39,300 nt of DNA from Streptosporangiales bacterium. Its GTDB lineage: Bacteria; Actinomycetota; Actinomycetes; Streptosporangiales; WHST01. Below are positions 12,658-36,869 of this stretch, in pieces. Both the position numbers and the translations under genes were made by a program. The first letter of the stretch is position 1; each line of letters begins with the position of its first letter. Under the pieces are notes generated by a model that was not told the origin of the DNA, searched no databases, and worked only from the letters and a program-made list of their open reading frames with translations. The DNA is taken from assembly GCA_009379955.1 (NCBI GenBank), contig WHST01000057.1, positions 1-39,300 of the forward strand. The letters are read 5' to 3'.

Positions 12658-13477
12658 GCCTGGCGGTCTGCTGCTGCTCCTGGTTCTCACGTGGGGTGCT
12701 GCCATCCGGGTCGTGGGCCCCGCCTCCAGGACCGGCGAGGAAAGTGATCATGGCGGCCGCAAACGCGACGACGCCGCCGATGAAGGCAGACACCTTCACC
12801 CACCGTCGCTTGTGTCGGCCGCGATCGAACCCCGCGCCGCTGTCGTCGCCGGTCTCACGGTTGAGGGGACCGTCTGAGCCACCTGTGCGGTCAGGCGTGC
12901 TCGCCGAGGTGCTCATCGCCGTGGCGGCCGTCGTCAGATCTGCGCGCCGGCCCTGCTGCTTACGGCGGTGCTCGCGTTGTTTGCGTTGCCCGTACGGGGT
13001 CAGGGCGCGTGGCTTGCCCACGGCCAGCACTGTGGCCAGCAGCAACCCGGTCAGGGCGAGCAGAGCGTGGTCCCTGGGTGTGCCTGCCAGCGCGCGGAGC
13101 TGGTCTGCGGACGATGTCGGGTCTGCCGCTACTCCTGCCGCAGGGCCGAGTGTTCCCGTCATGAACGCCAGTAAGACGATGGTGGACACGGTGGCGATCA
13201 CGAGTTTGAACAAGACCCAGTAGTGTCGGAGCAGGCCCCACACGGTGCCCGATGCCATGACAATCCCGGTCAGCAGCGAGGCGAAGGCAAACGGGACGAG
13301 GACGTACCAGCCGGTCGGCTCCATCACGAGCAGGGCGCCCCGCACGGTCTGAGGATCCTGGCTGGTCAACGCGACGATGGCGATTCCAACGAAGGCGACG
13401 ACGACGCCGAGCCAGCCGACGGAGGACACGACATGGGCGGTGAGCACGAACTTTCGTAGGCGGGTCGGCAGGACCAT
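12503..13477 (-). CDS. DUF2269-like membrane protein fused to a small-TM domain, copy 2, with run-on 3' end
   Basis: Residues 1-155 match the copy at 9208-9741 (RLRKFVLTAHVVSSVGWLG, WGLLRHYWVLFKL, KPRALTPYGQRK). After a hydrophilic linker comes a fifth helix with RRWVKVSAFIGGVVAFAAAM and GGGAHDPDG, which matches the separate small protein at 8975-9211. So the two polypeptides of copy 1, encoded small-then-large, are here one fusion in the order large-then-small. From about base 12657 the frame runs antisense through the VirB4 remnant, adding about 50 residues of unrelated sequence (rich in Ser/Ala) before a stop at 12503, so the native end was probably lost. The start at 13477 shares one base with the upstream stop. 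Confidence 0.75.
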   Translation of the reverse strand: MVLPTRLRKFVLTAHVVSSVGWLGVVVAFVGIAIVALTSQDPQTVRGALLVMEPTGWYVLVPFAFASLLTGIVMASGTVWGLLRHYWVLFKLVIATVSTIVLLAFMTGTLGPAAGVAADPTSSADQLRALAGTPRDHALLALTGLLLATVLAVGKPRALTPYGQRKQREHRRKQQGRRADLTTAATAMSTSASTPDRTGGSDGPLNRETGDDSGAGFDRGRHKRRWVKVSAFIGGVVAFAAAMITFLAGPGGGAHDPDGSTPRENQEQQQTARPENARTTSAWSRAASSTAAASSMLASTSARSASSGPWPVQVYGSAVIPTRW

Positions 13478-23422: not shown

Positions 23423-23502
23423 GTCCATGCCCTGAGTCCCACTCGAACGGCAGCTCGCCTCGGGTACTTGACGCGTGCGCCGAGCCGAGGAGGTCCAGGA
23501 GC

Positions 23503-24318
23503 TCACAGAGGCGGTTGCCAACCGGCGAGCCATGGTTGCATCCGGGCGATGAGGCCCGCCCACACCCCGGTGACCTGGAGGATTCCGACCGCGACGAGGA
23601 GCAGCCCGCCGGTGCGCATGACGGCCCGAGCGTGGCGGCGTGCGATCGTGAAGACGCCGAACGCACGGTTCACGCCGAGCGCGGCGAGCAGAAACGGGAT
23701 GCCGAGGCCGAGGCTGTAGGCGAAGGACAGTGCGGCGCCACGACCGGCACCGCCGGTGCTGGTCGACAGTGCCAGGACCGCCGCAAGCGTCGGTCCGATG
23801 CACGGCGTCCAGCCCACGCCGAACAGGACCCCCAACAGGGGAGCACCCGCGACGCCCAGTCGAGCCCGGTAGCCGAGCTGGATCGTCCGCCCAGCGAATG
23901 GGAGCCCACGCAAGGCCCCGGCGAACATGAGGCCCATGGCGATGGTGAGGACGCCGAGAACGCGGTAGACGGCGGTCTGGTGCGCGAGCAGCACGGTACC
24001 GATCGCGCCGAACGCAGCGCCGTAGCTGGTGAAGACGGCGGCGAAGCCGAGCACGAACAACGCGGTACCGATCACCGTACGACCGGGGCGGAGCGTACAG
24101 GCGCGAGTGGCCGTGGAGGTCGGTCGCCGCGGCGATTCCTGTCCATCATAGTGCGCCTCCGCGCCCGCGCTTCCGGTGACGTAGGCGAGGTAACCCGGTA
24201 CCAGCGGCAGGCAGCACGGACTGAGGAACGACACCACACCCGCCGCCACGGCAACGGGGATGGCGAGCAGCAACGGCCCGAAGACGACCAGGTCACCGGG
24301 ACCACCGGCCATCGTCAT
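23503..24318 (-). CDS. ccdA: Cytochrome c biogenesis protein CcdA, copy 2
   Basis: The protein is 271 residues, the same length as ccdA1, and nearly identical over the membrane helices, including [14 protein letters not shown] and [14 protein letters not shown]. By eye the 5' part of the gene is about 95% identical in DNA and the middle about 85%, mostly at third codon positions; the hydrophilic loop between helices 1 and 2 differs most. It transfers electrons from cytosolic thioredoxin to extracytoplasmic TlpA-type partners. The start overlaps tlpA2 by 4 bases, as in copy 1. The pair is on the opposite strand to the first pair, 22 kb away. Confidence 0.93.
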
Positions 24319-24968
24319 CCGGGTCTGCTCGCTTCCGAGGTGGCCGGACGAGCGCGGTGTTCGGCGACGACGTCGTCGACCAGTCCACGGAGCTGCCCGT
24401 AGGTGACCCGTCCGATCACCCGGGCGGCGATCCGGCCGTCCCGGTCGACCACGACGGTGCTGGGCACGGCACTGGCCGGGACGATGCCCTCGAAGGCAAG
24501 GTGGATCTTGCCCTGCGGATCACTCAGGCTCGGGTACGGGATGCCGAACTCGCGGTCGAACTCCCGCGCCGCGACCAGGCTGTCCCGGGTGTCGATGCCG
24601 ACGAACCGCACGCCGGCGCGGCGCGTCTCCCGCGCCACCCGAGCCAGGTCCGGCGCCTCCTCCTGACACGGGAGACACCACGAGCCCCACACGTTCACCA
24701 CGACCACGTGACCGCGTAGATCGGTCATGCTCAGCCGACCACCGTCGAGCGTGGCGCCGGTCACCGCCGGCACGGGCGGCCGACGCCCCGTCGAGAACCG
24801 CGTCTCACCGGTCACGACAGGGTTCTCGGAGGACCGTCGGGCCACCCGCTCGCCCGGCTCACCGGACCAAGTCGATCCCCTGACCCACGTCGCACCTGCC
24901 GCACCGACCGCCAGGACTGCCACGACGACCAGCACGAGCCGCCATCGGGCCACTCTGGGCACGGTCAT
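24315..24968 (-). CDS. TlpA/ResA-type membrane-anchored thioredoxin-like protein, copy 2
   Basis: A 217-residue protein with an N-terminal anchor (about 10-28) and a thioredoxin fold. The motif W97-C98-L-P-C101 is at the same position as in copy 1, and the AVPSTVVVD cis-Pro region, GIDTRD and [15 protein letters not shown] are conserved with it. It is expected to reduce apocytochrome c or another exported substrate and to be recharged by CcdA2. The start is fixed by equal length with copy 1. The dyad at 25047-25063 lies 79 bases upstream. It is divergent from tlpA3-resB-ccsB2. Confidence 0.9.
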
Positions 24969-29022: not shown

Positions 29023-29937
29023 ATGGGCCACGGACACGACCACGGCGCCTCGGCGACCGGTCACGCGGGCGGGCGGCACCGGTGGCGGCTCGCCGCCGCG
29101 TTCGCACTCATCGCCTCGTTCTTCGTCGTCGAGCTGGTCTACGGGCTGCTGTCAGGATCGCTGGCGCTGCTCTCCGACGCCGGCCACATAGCCGCCGACG
29201 TGGTCACCCTCGCCGCGGCGCTGGTGGCGACCCGGATCGCCACCCGGCGCGACAGCACCGGCCGACGCACCTACGGCTCGTACCGGGCCGAGATCTTCGC
29301 CTCGCTGCTCGCCGTGCTCGTCATGGTCGGCGTCGCGGTGTACATCGTCATCGAGGCGTTACGCCGCATCGGGGGCGACGCCGAGGTCGCCTTCGGACCC
29401 ATGCTCGTCGTCGGATCCATCGGTCTGGTCGTCAACGTCGCCGCCTTGCTGCTCCTGCGTTCCGGCGCCAGCGAGAGCCTCAACGTCAAGGGCGCCTACC
29501 TCGAGGTGGTCGCCGATACGGCCGGGTCGGTCGGTGTCATCGTCGCCGGCGTGCTGGTCTCGCTCACCGGTCAACCGGTGTGGGACACCCTGGTCGCGCT
29601 CGCGATCGGCGTGTTCGTGGTCGTCCGCGCCGTCATGCTGGGACGCCAGGTGTTCGCGGTGCTCGGCCAACACGCGCCAGAAGGGATGGACGTCGACGGC
29701 GTGGCCAGTGATCTGGCTGACGTGACGGGTGTGCAGGACGTCCACGACCTGCACCTGTGGACGTTGACGTCCGGCATGAATGTCGCGACCGCCCACCTGG
29801 TCGCCGACGACCGGGCGAACACGCACGCCGTCCTCGACCAGGCCCGCCAGGTGCTGCGAGAACGCCACGGCGTCGCACACGCCACACTGCAGGTCGAGCC
29901 ACTCGACCACACCGGCTGCGACGAGCTCAACTGGTGA
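29023..29937 (+). CDS. Cation diffusion facilitator (CDF) metal exporter, copy 1
   Basis: A 304-residue proton/metal antiporter. The N-terminus has MGHGHDHG and further His. Six membrane helices follow, with the transport site in helix 2 SDAGHIAADV (H55, D59). In helix 5 the usual HxxxD is ExxxD: GAYLEVVADTAGS (E161, D165), and helix 2 has Asp52 in front. The cytoplasmic C-terminal domain has HDLHLWTLTSGMNVATAHL, the ferredoxin-like CDF fold. Zn(II) or Cd(II) export is likely, given the upstream sensor. The gene overlaps ctaG by 4 bases. Confidence 0.9.
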   Translation: MGHGHDHGASATGHAGGRHRWRLAAAFALIASFFVVELVYGLLSGSLALLSDAGHIAADVVTLAAALVATRIATRRDSTGRRTYGSYRAEIFASLLAVLVMVGVAVYIVIEALRRIGGDAEVAFGPMLVVGSIGLVVNVAALLLLRSGASESLNVKGAYLEVVADTAGSVGVIVAGVLVSLTGQPVWDTLVALAIGVFVVVRAVMLGRQVFAVLGQHAPEGMDVDGVASDLADVTGVQDVHDLHLWTLTSGMNVATAHLVADDRANTHAVLDQARQVLRERHGVAHATLQVEPLDHTGCDELNW

Positions 29938-31244: not shown

Positions 31245-31265
31245 CCGATGGAGGGGCTGGCCCGA

Positions 31266-32447
31266 ATGAGCGCAGAACGCGAATACTCCGACGAGCAATC
31301 CTCGGGAGAATTCAGCGCGAGTACGGGCCATACGCACGTCCACGCGACCGAACCGCATCGGGCCCGTAATGCGCAGGTAGATCCCGGATCACACGCCGGC
31401 CACGGCCATGACCACGGCGATGTCCATGGGCACGGACATGGTCACGGCCACGAGCACGGCCATGAACACCGAACCGGGTTCGTAGGCGCCTTGGTCTCGG
31501 TCTTTCGTCCGCACAGTCACGACGCGGCGGACTCGATCGATGGTGCCCTGGTCGCCAGCAGGGCCGGTATCAGAGCGGTCAAGATCTCCCTGGTAGGTCT
31601 CGGCATCACGGCCGGACTGCAACTGGTCGTGGTCGCGATCACCGGCTCGATCGCGTTACTCGCCGACACGATCCACAACTTCTCCGACGCGCTGACGGCC
31701 GTACCGCTGTGGTTGGCGTTCTCCCTCGGCATGCGGCCGGTCACGCGGAAGTTCACCCACGGGTACCATCGGGCCGAGGACCTCGCGGGGCTGTTCATCG
31801 TGTTGATGATCGCGCTGTCGGCTGTCGTCGCGGGTTACCAGGCGATCGATCGGTTGATCAACCCACGAGCGATCGAATATGTCGGGCTCGTGGCGTTGGC
31901 CGGGGTCATCGGGTTCATCGGCAACGAGGCCGTTGCCATCTATCGCATCCGGGTGGGTCGACAGATCGGCTCGGCTGCACTGGTCGCGGACGGCTACCAC
32001 GCTCGCACGGACGGGCTCACGTCGCTCGCGGTGCTGATCGGCGCGGGCGGCGTGGCGCTCGGATTCCCGCTCGCCGACCCGATCATCGGCCTCGTCATCT
32101 CCGCCGCCATCCTCGTCGTCCTCAAGCAGGCGGCCGGCTCCGTGTTCCGGCGGGCGATGGACGGGATCGAGCCGGAGATCGTCGACGACCTGGAGTCCGC
32201 CGCGCTCGCGACCGACGGCGTGCTGTCCGTCGAGCGGTGTCGTGCCCGCTGGATCGGGCACGGACTCGCGGCCGAGATGAGCCTCTCGGTGAACGGCGCG
32301 CTCCACGTCGGCGATGCCGACCACATCGTGCATGACGTGGAGCACCGCCTCCGTGCGCGGGTTCCGAAGCTTCGCACGGTCACGATCTCCGTCACGGCAG
32401 CCGGGAGCCAACAGGACCAGGTCATGGCAGAGCCAAGGGCCGACTGA
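31266..32447 (+). CDS. Cation diffusion facilitator (CDF) metal exporter with His-rich N-terminus, copy 2
   Basis: A 393-residue antiporter. The N-terminal 75 residues carry a long His/Gly run (HAGHGHDHGDVHGHGHGHGH) likely to bind metal on the cytoplasmic side. Six membrane helices follow; the metal site has HNFSD in helix 2 (LLADTIHNFSDALTAVP) and HARTD in helix 5 (ADGYHARTDGLTSLAV), the canonical HxxxD pairs, unlike copy 1. The C-terminal domain is short. Zn(II), Co(II) or Fe(II) export is possible. The ATG at 31266 has GGAGGGG nine bases upstream; an earlier in-frame ATG at 31248 has none. It is separated from ctaG by a terminator and a leader hairpin, so it has its own unit. The SBP gene follows after 14 bases. 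Confidence 0.9.
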   Translation: MSAEREYSDEQSSGEFSASTGHTHVHATEPHRARNAQVDPGSHAGHGHDHGDVHGHGHGHGHEHGHEHRTGFVGALVSVFRPHSHDAADSIDGALVASRAGIRAVKISLVGLGITAGLQLVVVAITGSIALLADTIHNFSDALTAVPLWLAFSLGMRPVTRKFTHGYHRAEDLAGLFIVLMIALSAVVAGYQAIDRLINPRAIEYVGLVALAGVIGFIGNEAVAIYRIRVGRQIGSAALVADGYHARTDGLTSLAVLIGAGGVALGFPLADPIIGLVISAAILVVLKQAAGSVFRRAMDGIEPEIVDDLESAALATDGVLSVERCRARWIGHGLAAEMSLSVNGALHVGDADHIVHDVEHRLRARVPKLRTVTISVTAAGSQQDQVMAEPRAD

Positions 32448-32461
32448 AGGTAGGGATCAGG

Positions 32462-34153
32462 ATGCACCTCCGCACGTTGTCCACATGGACCGCCGCTGTC
32501 GTGGCGGGCACCTTACTTGCGGGATGTACCGGGACCGGCGGAGACAGCGGCGACGACGAGTTCGACGGCCTGCGTCCGGTCGCGCAGGATGTGTCCGGGC
32601 GCACCCGGGTACCTGCCATCCGGCTCCTGACCAAGACCGCCGCCGAGGACCCACGGCGCTACGAACAAACCCGACTCATCGCAGAGCGCTGGAAGACGGC
32701 CGGCATTCCCGCGCAGCTCACCCCCGTGCGCGGGACCGAACTCACCCGTAGGGCCTTCACCAGCAAGGACTTCGACGCGTTCGTGGTGACGTACGACCCG
32801 ACGCCCGAGCGCCTCGACCCGGACGACTTCCTCCGCAGGTTCACGACAGCCAACGCGACCGAGGCAGGCTCCAACAACTCCGGCTTCGCGAACGCGAGCT
32901 ACGACAAATACTACGCGGCACAGCGATCCGCGACGACCGAGAAGGAGCGGCGCACAGCGGTCTTCGCGGCGCAGAAGCTGCTGTACGAGCAGCAGCCCGC
33001 CCGACCGTTCGCCCACCTGGCCATCGCCGGAGCCTACCGGTCGGACCGTTGGGCGAACATCGAGAAGGCGGCAGGCAATCCGGTGTTCAACATCTGGAAC
33101 TCGATCGGTGCCAAGCCCACGACCGGTCGGAGGAATCTGGTCGTCGGGACGATCGCGGAGCCGCCGACGCTGAACCCGGTGGCGCTGGACACCACCGAGG
33201 CGCTGCTGCCGCTGTCGCACGTCTACGACAGCCTGGTCCGCATCGGACCGGACGGCAACCTCCGGAACTGGGCTGCCGACGACATCACGGAGAACGGCGA
33301 GACGGTGACAGCCAGGCTCCGTCCTGGCATGCGGTTCAGTGACGGGTCTCCCGTCACTGCGGCCGATGTGGCCTTCACCATCGACTACCTCGTGGAGGAG
33401 AAGTCACCACTGTTCGGCCCGAAACTCGAGGAGGTCGAGTCGGTGAAGACCTCCGGACGAACGATCACCATCACGCTGAAGGCACCCTCCGCGGCGTTCG
33501 TCTCGACTGTCCTGTCGCAGATGCCGATCCTGCCCAAACATGTCTGGAGGAAGGTCCAGGATCCGACGACCTACGCGAACGCCTCACCGGTAGGTTCTGG
33601 CCCGTTCTCCTTCGCCAGCAGGAACCTCGGCTCGGAGCTTCGCTTCACCGCGAACCGTTCGCACTTCTTCGCGCCGCGGATCGACGGCCTGACCATGGCA
33701 GTGCTGGGCAGCTTCGACGCCGAAGTCGGCGCACTGGGGCGCGGCGACATCGACATGATCGGCGACCAGCAGAGCGTGGCCCAACTGAAGACGATCCAGA
33801 ACAAGCCCGACATCGCGATCGTGAAGACCGACAGCTTCGGCTGGAGCGGGGTGCACTACAACATGCGGGGCGCACCGTTCGACGACCTCCACTTCCGCCG
33901 CGCGCTGTCCTACCTCGTCCCCGTCCAGGACATCATCGACATCGCGCTCGACGGGCAGGGCCGTCCGGCGGGTTCGGTCATCGCGCCGTCGCTGAGGGAG
34001 TGGTACGACCCGTCGCTCGAGCCATACCCGTACGACCCCCAGGCGGCCATGAAGGAGCTGCGGAAGGCCGGCTACGCCTTCGACGAAGACGGTGTCCTCT
34101 ACTACCCGGCCAAGGACGCCGATCGGCGCGTCAGGCAGAGTCCGAGTCCCTGA
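32462..34153 (+). CDS. ABC transporter substrate-binding lipoprotein (SBP_bac_5), circularly permuted
   Basis: A 563-residue lipoprotein with lipobox LAGC (Cys22). The usual start of a peptide/nickel-type binding protein, NLVVGTIAEPPTLNPVALD, is only reached at about residue 225, and the protein then follows the normal order (FSDGSPVTAADVAFTIDYL, PVGSGPFSFAS, FDDLHFRRALSYLVPVQDI) and stops after YDPQAAMKELRKAGYAFDEDGVLYYP. The segment that should follow, the rest of lobe II, is at the N-terminus instead: RRYEQTRLIAERWKTAGI (about 65-82), FDAFVVTYDPTPERLDPDDF, NASYDKYYAAQRSATTEKERR and the closing FAHLAIAGAYRSDRW. So the chain is circularly permuted but complete. The ligand is probably a peptide or a metal chelate. 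It is the first gene of an ABC operon. Confidence 0.85.
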   Translation: MHLRTLSTWTAAVVAGTLLAGCTGTGGDSGDDEFDGLRPVAQDVSGRTRVPAIRLLTKTAAEDPRRYEQTRLIAERWKTAGIPAQLTPVRGTELTRRAFTSKDFDAFVVTYDPTPERLDPDDFLRRFTTANATEAGSNNSGFANASYDKYYAAQRSATTEKERRTAVFAAQKLLYEQQPARPFAHLAIAGAYRSDRWANIEKAAGNPVFNIWNSIGAKPTTGRRNLVVGTIAEPPTLNPVALDTTEALLPLSHVYDSLVRIGPDGNLRNWAADDITENGETVTARLRPGMRFSDGSPVTAADVAFTIDYLVEEKSPLFGPKLEEVESVKTSGRTITITLKAPSAAFVSTVLSQMPILPKHVWRKVQDPTTYANASPVGSGPFSFASRNLGSELRFTANRSHFFAPRIDGLTMAVLGSFDAEVGALGRGDIDMIGDQQSVAQLKTIQNKPDIAIVKTDSFGWSGVHYNMRGAPFDDLHFRRALSYLVPVQDIIDIALDGQGRPAGSVIAPSLREWYDPSLEPYPYDPQAAMKELRKAGYAFDEDGVLYYPAKDADRRVRQSPSP

Positions 34154-34195: not shown

Positions 34196-35176
34196 GTGGC
34201 ACTGCTGAGATACGCGCTCGGCCGTGGCGTCCAGATGCTCGTGACGTTGGCCGTGGTGGTGCCGCTCACCTTCGCGCTGTTCCGCGCCGTTCCCGGTGAC
34301 CCCAGCGCCGCGGTGGTGGGACCGAACCTCGACCCGAGCGTCGCCGCCGAGCTGCGCCGTCGGTACGGCGTGGACGAGCCGCTGGCCGTGCAGTTCCTCA
34401 AGTTCGCCGGCCGCCTGCTCCAGGGCGACCTCGGGATGTCGTTCCAGTACAAGCAACCCGTCGGCGAGATCCTTGCCGACAGGCTCGTCAACACTGTGCT
34501 GCTCGTGGTGCCCGCGATCGTCCTGGCGCTTGTCATCGGTACCGCGCTCGGGGTCCTCGCCGGTACGTCCCGGCATCCGTTGCTGGTGGGGGTGGTGCGC
34601 AACGCGGCGTTCGTGGCGAAGGCATCCCCGATCTTCTGGGTGGCGACACTCGCGTTGCTGCTCTTCAGCTACCGGCTGAACCTGGTGCCGGCCATCGGGA
34701 TGCGAACACCCGGCCTGGCGGGTGACGCCGAAGGGCTGGCCGCGGTGTTCTCGACCGACTTCCTGCATCACCTCGCGCTGCCGCTCGTGGTGATGACCGT
34801 GTACTTCATCCCGGAACCGCTGTTGACGATGCGCACGGCGATGCGTGAGGTGCTGCACGAGGATTTCATCGAGCTGGGCCGCGCCACCGGTCTCTCCCGG
34901 CTACGGATCGTGTACCGGCACGCGGCGCGCAACGCGTTGCTCCCCGTCGTGACGCTCATGCCGGCACTCACCGGCGTGATCATCGGCGGCCAGGTGATCG
35001 TCGAGACGGTCTTCTCCTGGCCCGGGATGGGTCGCGCGATCGTCGAGGCCGTGAACAACTTCGACTACCCGATGATGCAGGGAGTCTTCCTGATGACCGC
35101 TGTACTGGCGATCGTGGTCAACACGGTCATCGACATCGCGTACGCCTATCTGGACCCCCGGGTGAGGCTCGCATGA
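34196..35176 (+). CDS. DppB/OppB-type ABC transporter permease
   Basis: A 326-residue permease with six membrane helices. MLVTLAVVVPLTFALFRAVPGDP is the family's N-terminus, and LRRRYGVDEPLAVQFLKFAGRLLQGDLGMS follows. The EAA loop that contacts the ATPase reads DFIELGRATGLSRLRIVYRHAARNALLP. It ends with SWPGMGRAIVEAV and a final helix. The GTG at 34196 has GAGGAGG upstream. It lies 42 bases after the SBP gene and overlaps the next permease by 4 bases, so this is a peptide/nickel-type importer operon. Confidence 0.92.
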   Translation: MALLRYALGRGVQMLVTLAVVVPLTFALFRAVPGDPSAAVVGPNLDPSVAAELRRRYGVDEPLAVQFLKFAGRLLQGDLGMSFQYKQPVGEILADRLVNTVLLVVPAIVLALVIGTALGVLAGTSRHPLLVGVVRNAAFVAKASPIFWVATLALLLFSYRLNLVPAIGMRTPGLAGDAEGLAAVFSTDFLHHLALPLVVMTVYFIPEPLLTMRTAMREVLHEDFIELGRATGLSRLRIVYRHAARNALLPVVTLMPALTGVIIGGQVIVETVFSWPGMGRAIVEAVNNFDYPMMQGVFLMTAVLAIVVNTVIDIAYAYLDPRVRLA

Positions 35177-35871
35177 ACACGACCGTCGGACAGATCCCAG
35201 CCGGGGGCTTGCGACCACGCATCACGCCAGTCCTCCGCGGATGCGCGGCAGTGCTGCGGGGACTCTGGTCGACGCGCGCCGGACGCGTCGCCGTCGTCAT
35301 CGTCGGCCTGTTCGTTCTCGTCGCCCTGCTCGCACCCTGGATCGCGCCGTACGGCGCCCTCGAACGCACCCGTGGAGCTGACGGTCAGCTCAGCCGGCTG
35401 CTCGCGCCGAGCCTGGCGCATCCGTTCGGCACCACGAACTTCGGCCGCGACATCTTCAGCCAGGTCATCTGGGGTACCCAGCGAACCATCTCCATCGGCG
35501 GGATAGCCGCGTTGGCCTCGGTGTTCATCGGCGTCAACGTGGGCCTGATCGCGGGTTACACCGGCGGCCGGGTGGACGCGGTCCTCATGCGCCTGGCGGA
35601 CACCGCATACGCGATTCCGTTCCTCCCGCTCGCCATCGTCATGATCGCCATTCTCGGACGTTCGGATGTCGTGCTGGTCCTGGCGATCGCGCTGCTCTTC
35701 TGGCGAACGACCGCGCGGGTCATCCGGTCCCAGATCCTTACGCTCAAGGAACGCGCCTTCGTGAAGGCCGCGATCGTCGGCGGTGCCACGCGGCGCCGCG
35801 TCCTGTACACGCACCTGGCACCCAACATCATCTCGCTCGCGCGACATGCTGGAGGTCGGCGGCCAGGGTGA
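35173..35871 (+). pseudogene. DppC/OppC-type ABC permease, truncated at the 3' end
   Basis: The N-terminal 220 residues are a normal DppC-type permease: helix 1 (RVAVVIVGLFVLVALLAPWIAPYG), HPFGTTNFGRDIFSQVIWGTQRTISIGG, and several helices up to the EAA loop ERAFVKAAIVGGATRRRVLYTHLAPNII. At about base 35842 homology stops; the last dozen codons read into the opposite-strand ccdA3 gene and end at 35871. The two final helices and the LSFLGFG-type segment are missing, as are any ATPase genes after it. So the importer here cannot be complete. The junction is a recombination seam. Confidence 0.82.
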
Positions 35872-36580
35872 CCCGCCACCCCGAGTTCGGCATCGACGGA
35901 CCGGTGAACGCAAGCACCACCGTCAGTGCGCCCATCGCGACCAGCACGCCGCCGGCCAGCGCGTGGCCGAGTGACATGTCGCGGCGCAGCGGTCCCAGCC
36001 GCACCGTGATCTGCCGGCCGTGCAACCACCGGCTCGACGACCAGTCGCGGCGGTCCCACACCAGCGCCAGCGTCGCCAACGGCGCCACCATGCCCGCCAC
36101 GAAGGTGAGGCTCACCGCCAGCGCCGCGGCGAACGAGGCGGTAGCCCCGGACAACACCGCCACCCCGGCCAGCACCGGCGCACAGCACGCACTCGCGGCG
36201 CCGGAGAACACGCCCAGCACGTACGCCGACCCGAGGCCCCGGCCCGCGGGACGGGCGCTCGACATCGGCAGTCGCGGCCGCCACCCCGCCAGCATCGCGA
36301 CGCCACCCGCCGCCATCGCGACACCCCCGACGGCGAACAGCACCAGGTGATACCCGGAGAGCGCCGCGCTGATCGCGCTCGCACCCAACCCGATCGGGAC
36401 GATCAACGTCGCCACGCCTCCGGCGAACACCAATGTCGCGGCCACCACCCCCCGACGCCGCCGGAAGCCGGCCGCGAGATACGCGGACACCATCACCGAC
36501 ACACAACACGGGGCGAGCAACGCGACCACACCCCCGGCGAAGGATGCCAGCAGCGTCGTACCGAACACCACCTCGTGCAT
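35828..36580 (-). CDS. CcdA/DsbD-type membrane electron-transfer protein, copy 3
   Basis: A 250-residue protein with six membrane helices in two repeats. The first carries LLAPCCVSVMVSAYLAA (Cys25-Cys26), the second SGAASACCAPVLAGVAVL (a second Cys pair at about 119-120). The double CC in both repeats differs from copies 1 and 2. It belongs to the thiol-disulfide interchange membrane proteins that feed exported reductases; the particular partner is unknown. The ATG at 36580 is preferred; the dyad AACTA-N7-TAGTT lies 58-74 bases upstream. It is transcribed toward the broken ABC permease, and its last codons overlap that frame. Confidence 0.83.
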   Translation of the reverse strand: MHEVVFGTTLLASFAGGVVALLAPCCVSVMVSAYLAAGFRRRRGVVAATLVFAGGVATLIVPIGLGASAISAALSGYHLVLFAVGGVAMAAGGVAMLAGWRPRLPMSSARPAGRGLGSAYVLGVFSGAASACCAPVLAGVAVLSGATASFAAALAVSLTFVAGMVAPLATLALVWDRRDWSSSRWLHGRQITVRLGPLRRDMSLGHALAGGVLVAMGALTVVLAFTGPSMPNSGWRVTLAADLQHVARAR

Positions 36581-36637
36581 GCAGGCGACTCCTCGACCAC
36601 GTTCGGCTTCGGTCAGCTCAGCGAGCGATACAAAAAG

Positions 36638-36654
36638 AACTAAACTTCTTAGTT
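36638..36654 (-). promoter_or_regulatory. BlaI-type dyad (AACTA-N7-TAGTT) upstream of ccdA3
   Basis: AACTAA and TTAGTT form a perfect 6-base inverted repeat around ACTTC. The surrounding bases are the most AT-rich in this part. The remainder of 36581-36869 has no gene I can support. Confidence 0.6.
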
Positions 36655-36869
36655 GTAAGGTAGCGCATGCACTGTCCACCGCCGCCTAGCGGCAGCTCGT
36701 CCGCGAAGGACCCACCGAGCGTTCTGGGCGAGATGCTCGGCGTCTCGCCCAGCCACAGCCATACGTCACGCGAAGATGGCCGGTGCCGATCTCCTCCGCT
36801 ACGGGCATCCAGCAGGGAGGAGGTTGACGGAGAGTAAGGTGAGGCATCGGCTCGGGAGGGGACCTGGCC

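Follow-up and report, generated by a model that had tools for sequence, protein, structure and literature searches.

A substrate-binding protein of the DppA/OppA type in permuted order, and its apparently old and widespread family

Results

The gene at 32462-34153 encodes a binding protein in permuted order

In the window analysed here (a stretch of 39,300 nucleotides from a Streptosporangiales bacterium), the open reading frame at positions 32462-34153 of the + strand encodes a lipoprotein of 563 residues. This protein is a family-5 (cluster C, DppA/OppA-type) substrate-binding protein (SBP) whose parts stand in permuted order, and chance was excluded as an explanation. Together with its family, it very probably represents a natural circular permutant of a cluster C SBP. 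Besides the reading frame and the profile matches described below, the gene was supported by the conservation of its codon positions. Relative to the two closest orthologues, the third positions were the least conserved (0.57/0.54, against 0.73/0.72 for the first and 0.79/0.76 for the second), which indicated that the protein is under selection.

When the whole protein was scanned with Pfam, SBP_bac_5 (PF00496) was the single family detected, with 198.6 bits for a cut-off of 32.4, and the structure matches listed were all cluster C chains. Profile positions 6-284 were aligned with residues 271-544, and positions 287-364 with residues 50-131 (E 0.003 when this part was scanned alone). Since the second piece of the profile precedes the first in the protein, the latter was classed as a permuted variant and not as an ordinary SBP_bac_5 member; the native protein is not collinear with the domain, whereas a copy rewired in silico is. 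A comparable pattern was obtained by phmmer against the chain of 8efz, where residues 221-550 corresponded to positions 9-334 and residues 103-184 to positions 382-459. A home-made profile of length 544, built from nine ordinary SBPs, namely DppA and OppA of E. coli and seven proteins of the source genome, matched the native protein with positions 400-522 at residues 66-195 (9e-14), followed by positions 61-386 at residues 220-545 (1.9e-64). With the rewired protein, a single match covering 64-522 of the 544 positions was observed, scoring 247.6 bits, against 206.2 bits for the best native piece. Each of the two parts occurs once in the window protein: residues about 50-195 correspond solely to the C-terminal third of ordinary SBPs, and residues about 220-545 to their N-terminal two-thirds.

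Profiles of the family led to the same result. In the family profile A3, whose members all matched PF00496 (42/42), positions 198-528 were aligned with residues 23-349 of AppA (1xoc) and positions 38-164 with residues 375-496, the second piece reaching 8.7e-12 by itself. When a profile built from the N-terminal segment of the family only (A4) was searched against the PDB, 38 distinct sequences were recovered, all of them family-5-type binding proteins matched in their C-terminal parts only, the best at 9e-14.

Anatomy of the permuted protein

All features of the gene are on the + strand. The protein begins with a lipoprotein signal peptide with the lipobox LAGC (Cys22) at 32462-32527, recognised in the sequence, and a tether at 32528-32608 (residues 23-49), most of which was modelled with low confidence (pLDDT below 50 at residues 1-35). 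The permuted segment follows at 32609-33106 (residues 50-215) and, according to the profiles, the alignment and the model, corresponds to about residues 345-504 of mature DppA, which comprise the latter half of lobe II together with the C-terminal stretch leading back to lobe I. A joint at 33107-33133 (residues 216-224) leads from the ordinary C-terminus to the ordinary N-terminus, as judged from the DppA alignment. The ordinary N-terminal two-thirds lie at 33134-34096 (residues 225-545, about 2-341 of mature DppA by profiles, model and alignment), and the gene is closed by a new C-terminal tail (residues 546-563) and the stop codon at 34097-34153, delimited from the sequence and the DppA alignment. 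Within this order, AAEDPRRYEQTRLIAERW starts at residue 60, FAHLAIAGAYRSDRW ends at about 197 and NLVVGTIAEPPTLNP starts at 225.

The last residue of mature DppA (507) was aligned with residue 221 of the window protein and its first residue with 224, which means that the old ends are linked by a few residues. The tail stops at the expected start of the lobe II segment, and the new chain ends correspond to about DppA 341-346 (mature numbering), a loop which we take to lie within lobe II (domain II, about 261-472). The ordinary DppA N-terminus sits in lobe I. In consequence, lobe II rather than lobe I would carry the signal peptide and, in members that have one, the lipid anchor.

The earlier note on this DNA, made from the sequence, had placed the segment that closes lobe II at residues about 55-215, ahead of the canonical N-terminal start at about residue 225. 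The profile matches (Pfam, PDB, home-made) and the rewiring test, coordinates included, all agreed with this, and the DppA alignment and the sequence bore out its second point, that the C-terminus ends where this segment should begin. Neither an unrelated domain in the N-terminal segment nor a second copy of the lobe II segment at the C-terminus appeared; a search with the N-terminal segment alone, one of the checks proposed there, had retrieved only C-terminal parts of family-5-type binders from the PDB.

Predicted structure of the two parts

The structure prediction proposed in the same note was carried out with AlphaFold2, and the models of the whole protein and of the segment matched family-5 structures part by part. 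The two parts were matched separately, since aligners that work sequentially are unable to superpose the permuted chain in full. In the full-length model (pLDDT 83.2, pTM 0.78), residues 218-549 were superposed on the first two-thirds of AppA, NikZ and OppA; against AppA 1xoc, Z was 25.5 with an rmsd of 4.5 over 320 aligned residues. The model of residues 40-222 alone was of moderate quality (pLDDT 74.1, pTM 0.60). The 50 matches listed for it were all family-5-type binders, matched at about residues 340-540 of the chain with Z values of 8.2-9.1; for DppA 1dpp (336-480), Z was 8.5 with an rmsd of 4.0 over 141 aligned residues. Although moderate in Z, the matches listed formed a homogeneous set consistent with the sequence result. 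No meaningful match was obtained when viral structures were searched for the fold. The models thus predict the two-lobed cluster C fold, each part matching cluster C structures in the expected region, and the chain would most likely fold into the usual Venus flytrap.

Distribution and origin of the permuted family

Permuted members are known from Alphaproteobacteria, haloarchaea and Actinomycetota, and further phyla were reached through metagenome bins. In a tblastn search of plasmids, 50 records matched at least 80% of the query at a single place; the matches listed, 20 in number, came from haloarchaea and Alphaproteobacteria and were 27-33% identical. A scan of genome contigs with the window protein as sole query gave no match, and a scan of one genome per species guided by a profile gave 170 relatives. 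The best 80 of these 170, which were kept, belonged mainly to Alphaproteobacteria and included metagenome bins, whose names can be wrong, assigned to Trueperaceae, Armatimonadetes, Anaerolineae, Caldilineae, Thermomicrobiaceae and Bacillota. Closer to the window, 3 of 345 genomes of its own order were positive, namely its own and two with proteins at 62-65% identity, as were 3 of 396 genomes in a sample of its phylum, its own included. The earlier note had pointed to a similar order in haloarchaeal proteins, which the plasmid search, among others, brought to light, and had supposed a small family. The latter view was not upheld, in light of the 170 relatives found in one scan and the members in several phyla.

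All 95 members examined were permuted, and each contained the segment a single time, at about 20% of the protein length, in agreement with the proposal that all parts are present once and that the order reflects a permutation and not a truncation or a duplication. By comparison, the 35 ordinary SBPs were all collinear, and the segment profile recognised 21 of them, near 85% of their length. Because the order is the same in all 95 members, it is not an accident of the source genome. Misassembly, truncation and duplication were ruled out as its cause by the relatives and by the single copy of the segment. A local artefact, in which an assembly error or the fused fragments of two adjacent SBP genes would have produced the order, could be suspected from the draft state of the genome and from the operon's 3' end, broken at about 35840. 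However, intact orthologues, 62-65% identical and in the same order, were found in two other genera, some 90 further relatives share this order, and the window gene displays codon-position conservation, which makes such an artefact so improbable as to be negligible.

In a tree of rewired sequences (92 permuted, 29 ordinary), the permuted proteins formed one clade with an SH-like support of 0.958, and in a tree of the core without the moved segment (81 permuted, 35 ordinary) one clade with 0.946; ordinary SBPs were absent from the permuted clade in both. Both trees are approximate (FastTree) and contain few haloarchaeal members. Within these limits of method and sampling, the single clade in both trees makes a single old permutation event likely, and the permuted subfamily is apparently old, widespread and monophyletic. 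An alignment of the family (A1) was too diverse for patterns to be derived. The permuted order probably arose once, and could have done so through fusion or tandem duplication of SBP genes, after which the outer parts were lost; a few residues would then connect the ordinary N- and C-termini, with new ends opened in the loop in the middle of lobe II.

Alternatively, the protein could be a chimera that lost its own C-terminal third, acquired the corresponding part of another SBP gene by fusion at its front, and then spread; the end product would have the same fold, yet be a hybrid instead of a true permutation. Over the 35 ordinary SBPs, the scores of core and segment were uncorrelated (rho 0.08), so that the moved segment might derive from another SBP gene, and the same doubt has been discussed for MglB-2 of Treponema (PMC4990184). 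Against this, the core and segment profiles overlap in their nearest PDB relatives (AppA 1xoc, CcNikZ-II 8efz and DppA), and the correlation test is weak since the segment is short and diverged. A hybrid origin was considered unlikely, and a circular permutation is the reading retained below.

Comparison with known binding proteins

After rewiring, homology to cluster C (family 5) SBPs (PF00496: DppA, OppA, AppA, NikA, NikZ) extends over approximately the whole chain. The predicted fold of both parts, the type of operon and the position of the acid for the ligand amine are alike; the differences are that the two parts are swapped here and that the chain termini fall midway through lobe II. Owing to the permuted order, standard profiles describe these proteins just in part, and among the members scanned with NCBIfam no model attained its cut-off.

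Natural circular permutation has already been described from cluster B. There, Tp0684 (MglB-2) of Treponema pallidum, for which the term 'Type Ic / Cluster Bc' was proposed, is likewise a permuted binding protein of an ABC transporter in which the fold is kept and many members are tethered; it differs in being a sugar-binding cluster B protein whose permuted part is a piece of the N lobe at the C-terminus, and its homologues occur mostly in treponemes and Gram-positive bacteria (PMC4990184). In the open literature, with subscription papers mostly outside the coverage, no earlier description of a permuted cluster C (peptide-, DppA- or family-5-type) binder was found.

The many relatives of this natural permutant show that lobe II of cluster C binders can accommodate new chain ends and that the permuted form has been maintained by evolution at large scale. 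A simple pattern, which overlooks some cases, detected a lipobox-like motif in 7 of the 95 members, so that lipid anchoring cannot explain the permutation in general. It is conceivable, though in our opinion improbable, that one ancient permutation founded a large cluster C subfamily common to archaea and several bacterial phyla, and was retained because the anchor or ends on lobe II alter docking on, or release from, a co-evolved importer. With this family it can be asked whether importer docking depends on the chain ends and the membrane anchor, and the permuted SBP points to a cut site, already tried by nature, for the design of biosensors.

Putative ligand

In the relatives, the gene lies in SBP-permease-permease-ATPase operons of the Dpp/Opp type or close variants. 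Among 60 loci of at least 14 kb, an M28 peptidase gene was near 46, a hydantoinase B/oxoprolinase gene near 39 and an IclR regulator gene near 35, these being raw counts from loci many of which are close relatives of each other. Genes for D-aminoacylase, dipeptide epimerase, creatininase, M81 peptidase or gamma-glutamylcyclotransferase were found nearby in haloarchaeal and other members.

In the alignment, Glu116 (32807-32809, + strand), within a PER.DPD motif, occupies the position of DppA Asp408 and OppA Asp419, presumably the acid that anchors the ligand amine. This position is Glu in 42/42 sequences of A3 and Glu or Asp in 88/92 of a larger set. The permuted family thus has Glu where DppA has Asp, and it lacks DppA Arg355 (carboxylate binding), the aligned position being mostly Ala or Gly. 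The conserved acid and the neighbouring genes make import of peptides or related amides the best guess; that the ligands are amino-group-bearing peptides or related amides we hold to be evenly poised. The cleft would capture such a ligand with Glu116 in the role of DppA Asp408, and would pass it on to an importer of the DppBC/DppDF type whose genes lie in that operon as well. As the neighbours of the window gene differ, this guess is weaker for the window's own copy.

Uptake of metal chelates of the nickel or opine type, instead of peptides or amino-acid derivatives, was also weighed. The best NCBIfam profile of the window protein was NikA (TIGR02294), and a CDF efflux gene lies beside the window SBP and near the SBP of genome G184. 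Nevertheless, every NCBIfam cut-off was missed by far, that of TIGR02294 included (99.4 bits for 393), no CDF gene turned up in the region surrounding the permuted SBP of genome G225, and the neighbours of other members are peptidase, oxoprolinase, D-aminoacylase and creatininase genes. Metal-chelate uptake appears quite unlikely, and peptides or related amides remain the preferred class.

The operon of the window and its surroundings

Downstream of the SBP gene, a complete DppB/OppB-type permease gene was found at 34196-35176 (+ strand; Pfam BPD_transp_1, 4.3e-38, and BPD_transp_1_N), its product being about 70% identical to the orthologues of genomes G184 and G225. It is followed at 35173-35871 (+ strand) by a truncated DppC/OppC-type permease gene, in which homology stops at residue 223 (about 35840), the G184 orthologue having 304 residues. 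Starting exactly at this point, the stretch 35840-36602 is 83% similar to a cytochrome-biogenesis-like locus of the sister species G001, and the truncated gene adjoins a cytochrome-biogenesis-like gene on the opposite strand (35828-36679). For the fused ATPase encoded 3' of OppC in G184, no close match was seen in the source assembly (best 43%). The relatives thus have an operon of two permeases and one or more ATPases, and in the window just one permease is intact, the other being truncated. The operon either lost its 3' end when the segment came to its present place or is cut by a misjoin of the contig. Because of this truncation, the SBP copy of the window may have been deprived of its own importer.

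Upstream, CDF metal-efflux genes are located at 29023-29937 and 31248-32447. A counterpart of the second, 59% identical, lies close to the permuted SBP of G184; none was seen in the stretch around that of G225. At the G184 locus (L018), positions 12696-12848 of the - strand, upstream of the permuted SBP, resemble SBP residues 318-368 in broken frames and are probably the remains of a decayed second SBP gene. Elsewhere in the window, positions 565-1840 and 23496-24771 form an inverted pair, 81% identical, which bears two similar CcdA-like genes (1018-1833, + strand; 23503-24318, - strand), and both copies resemble one and the same stretch of the sister species.
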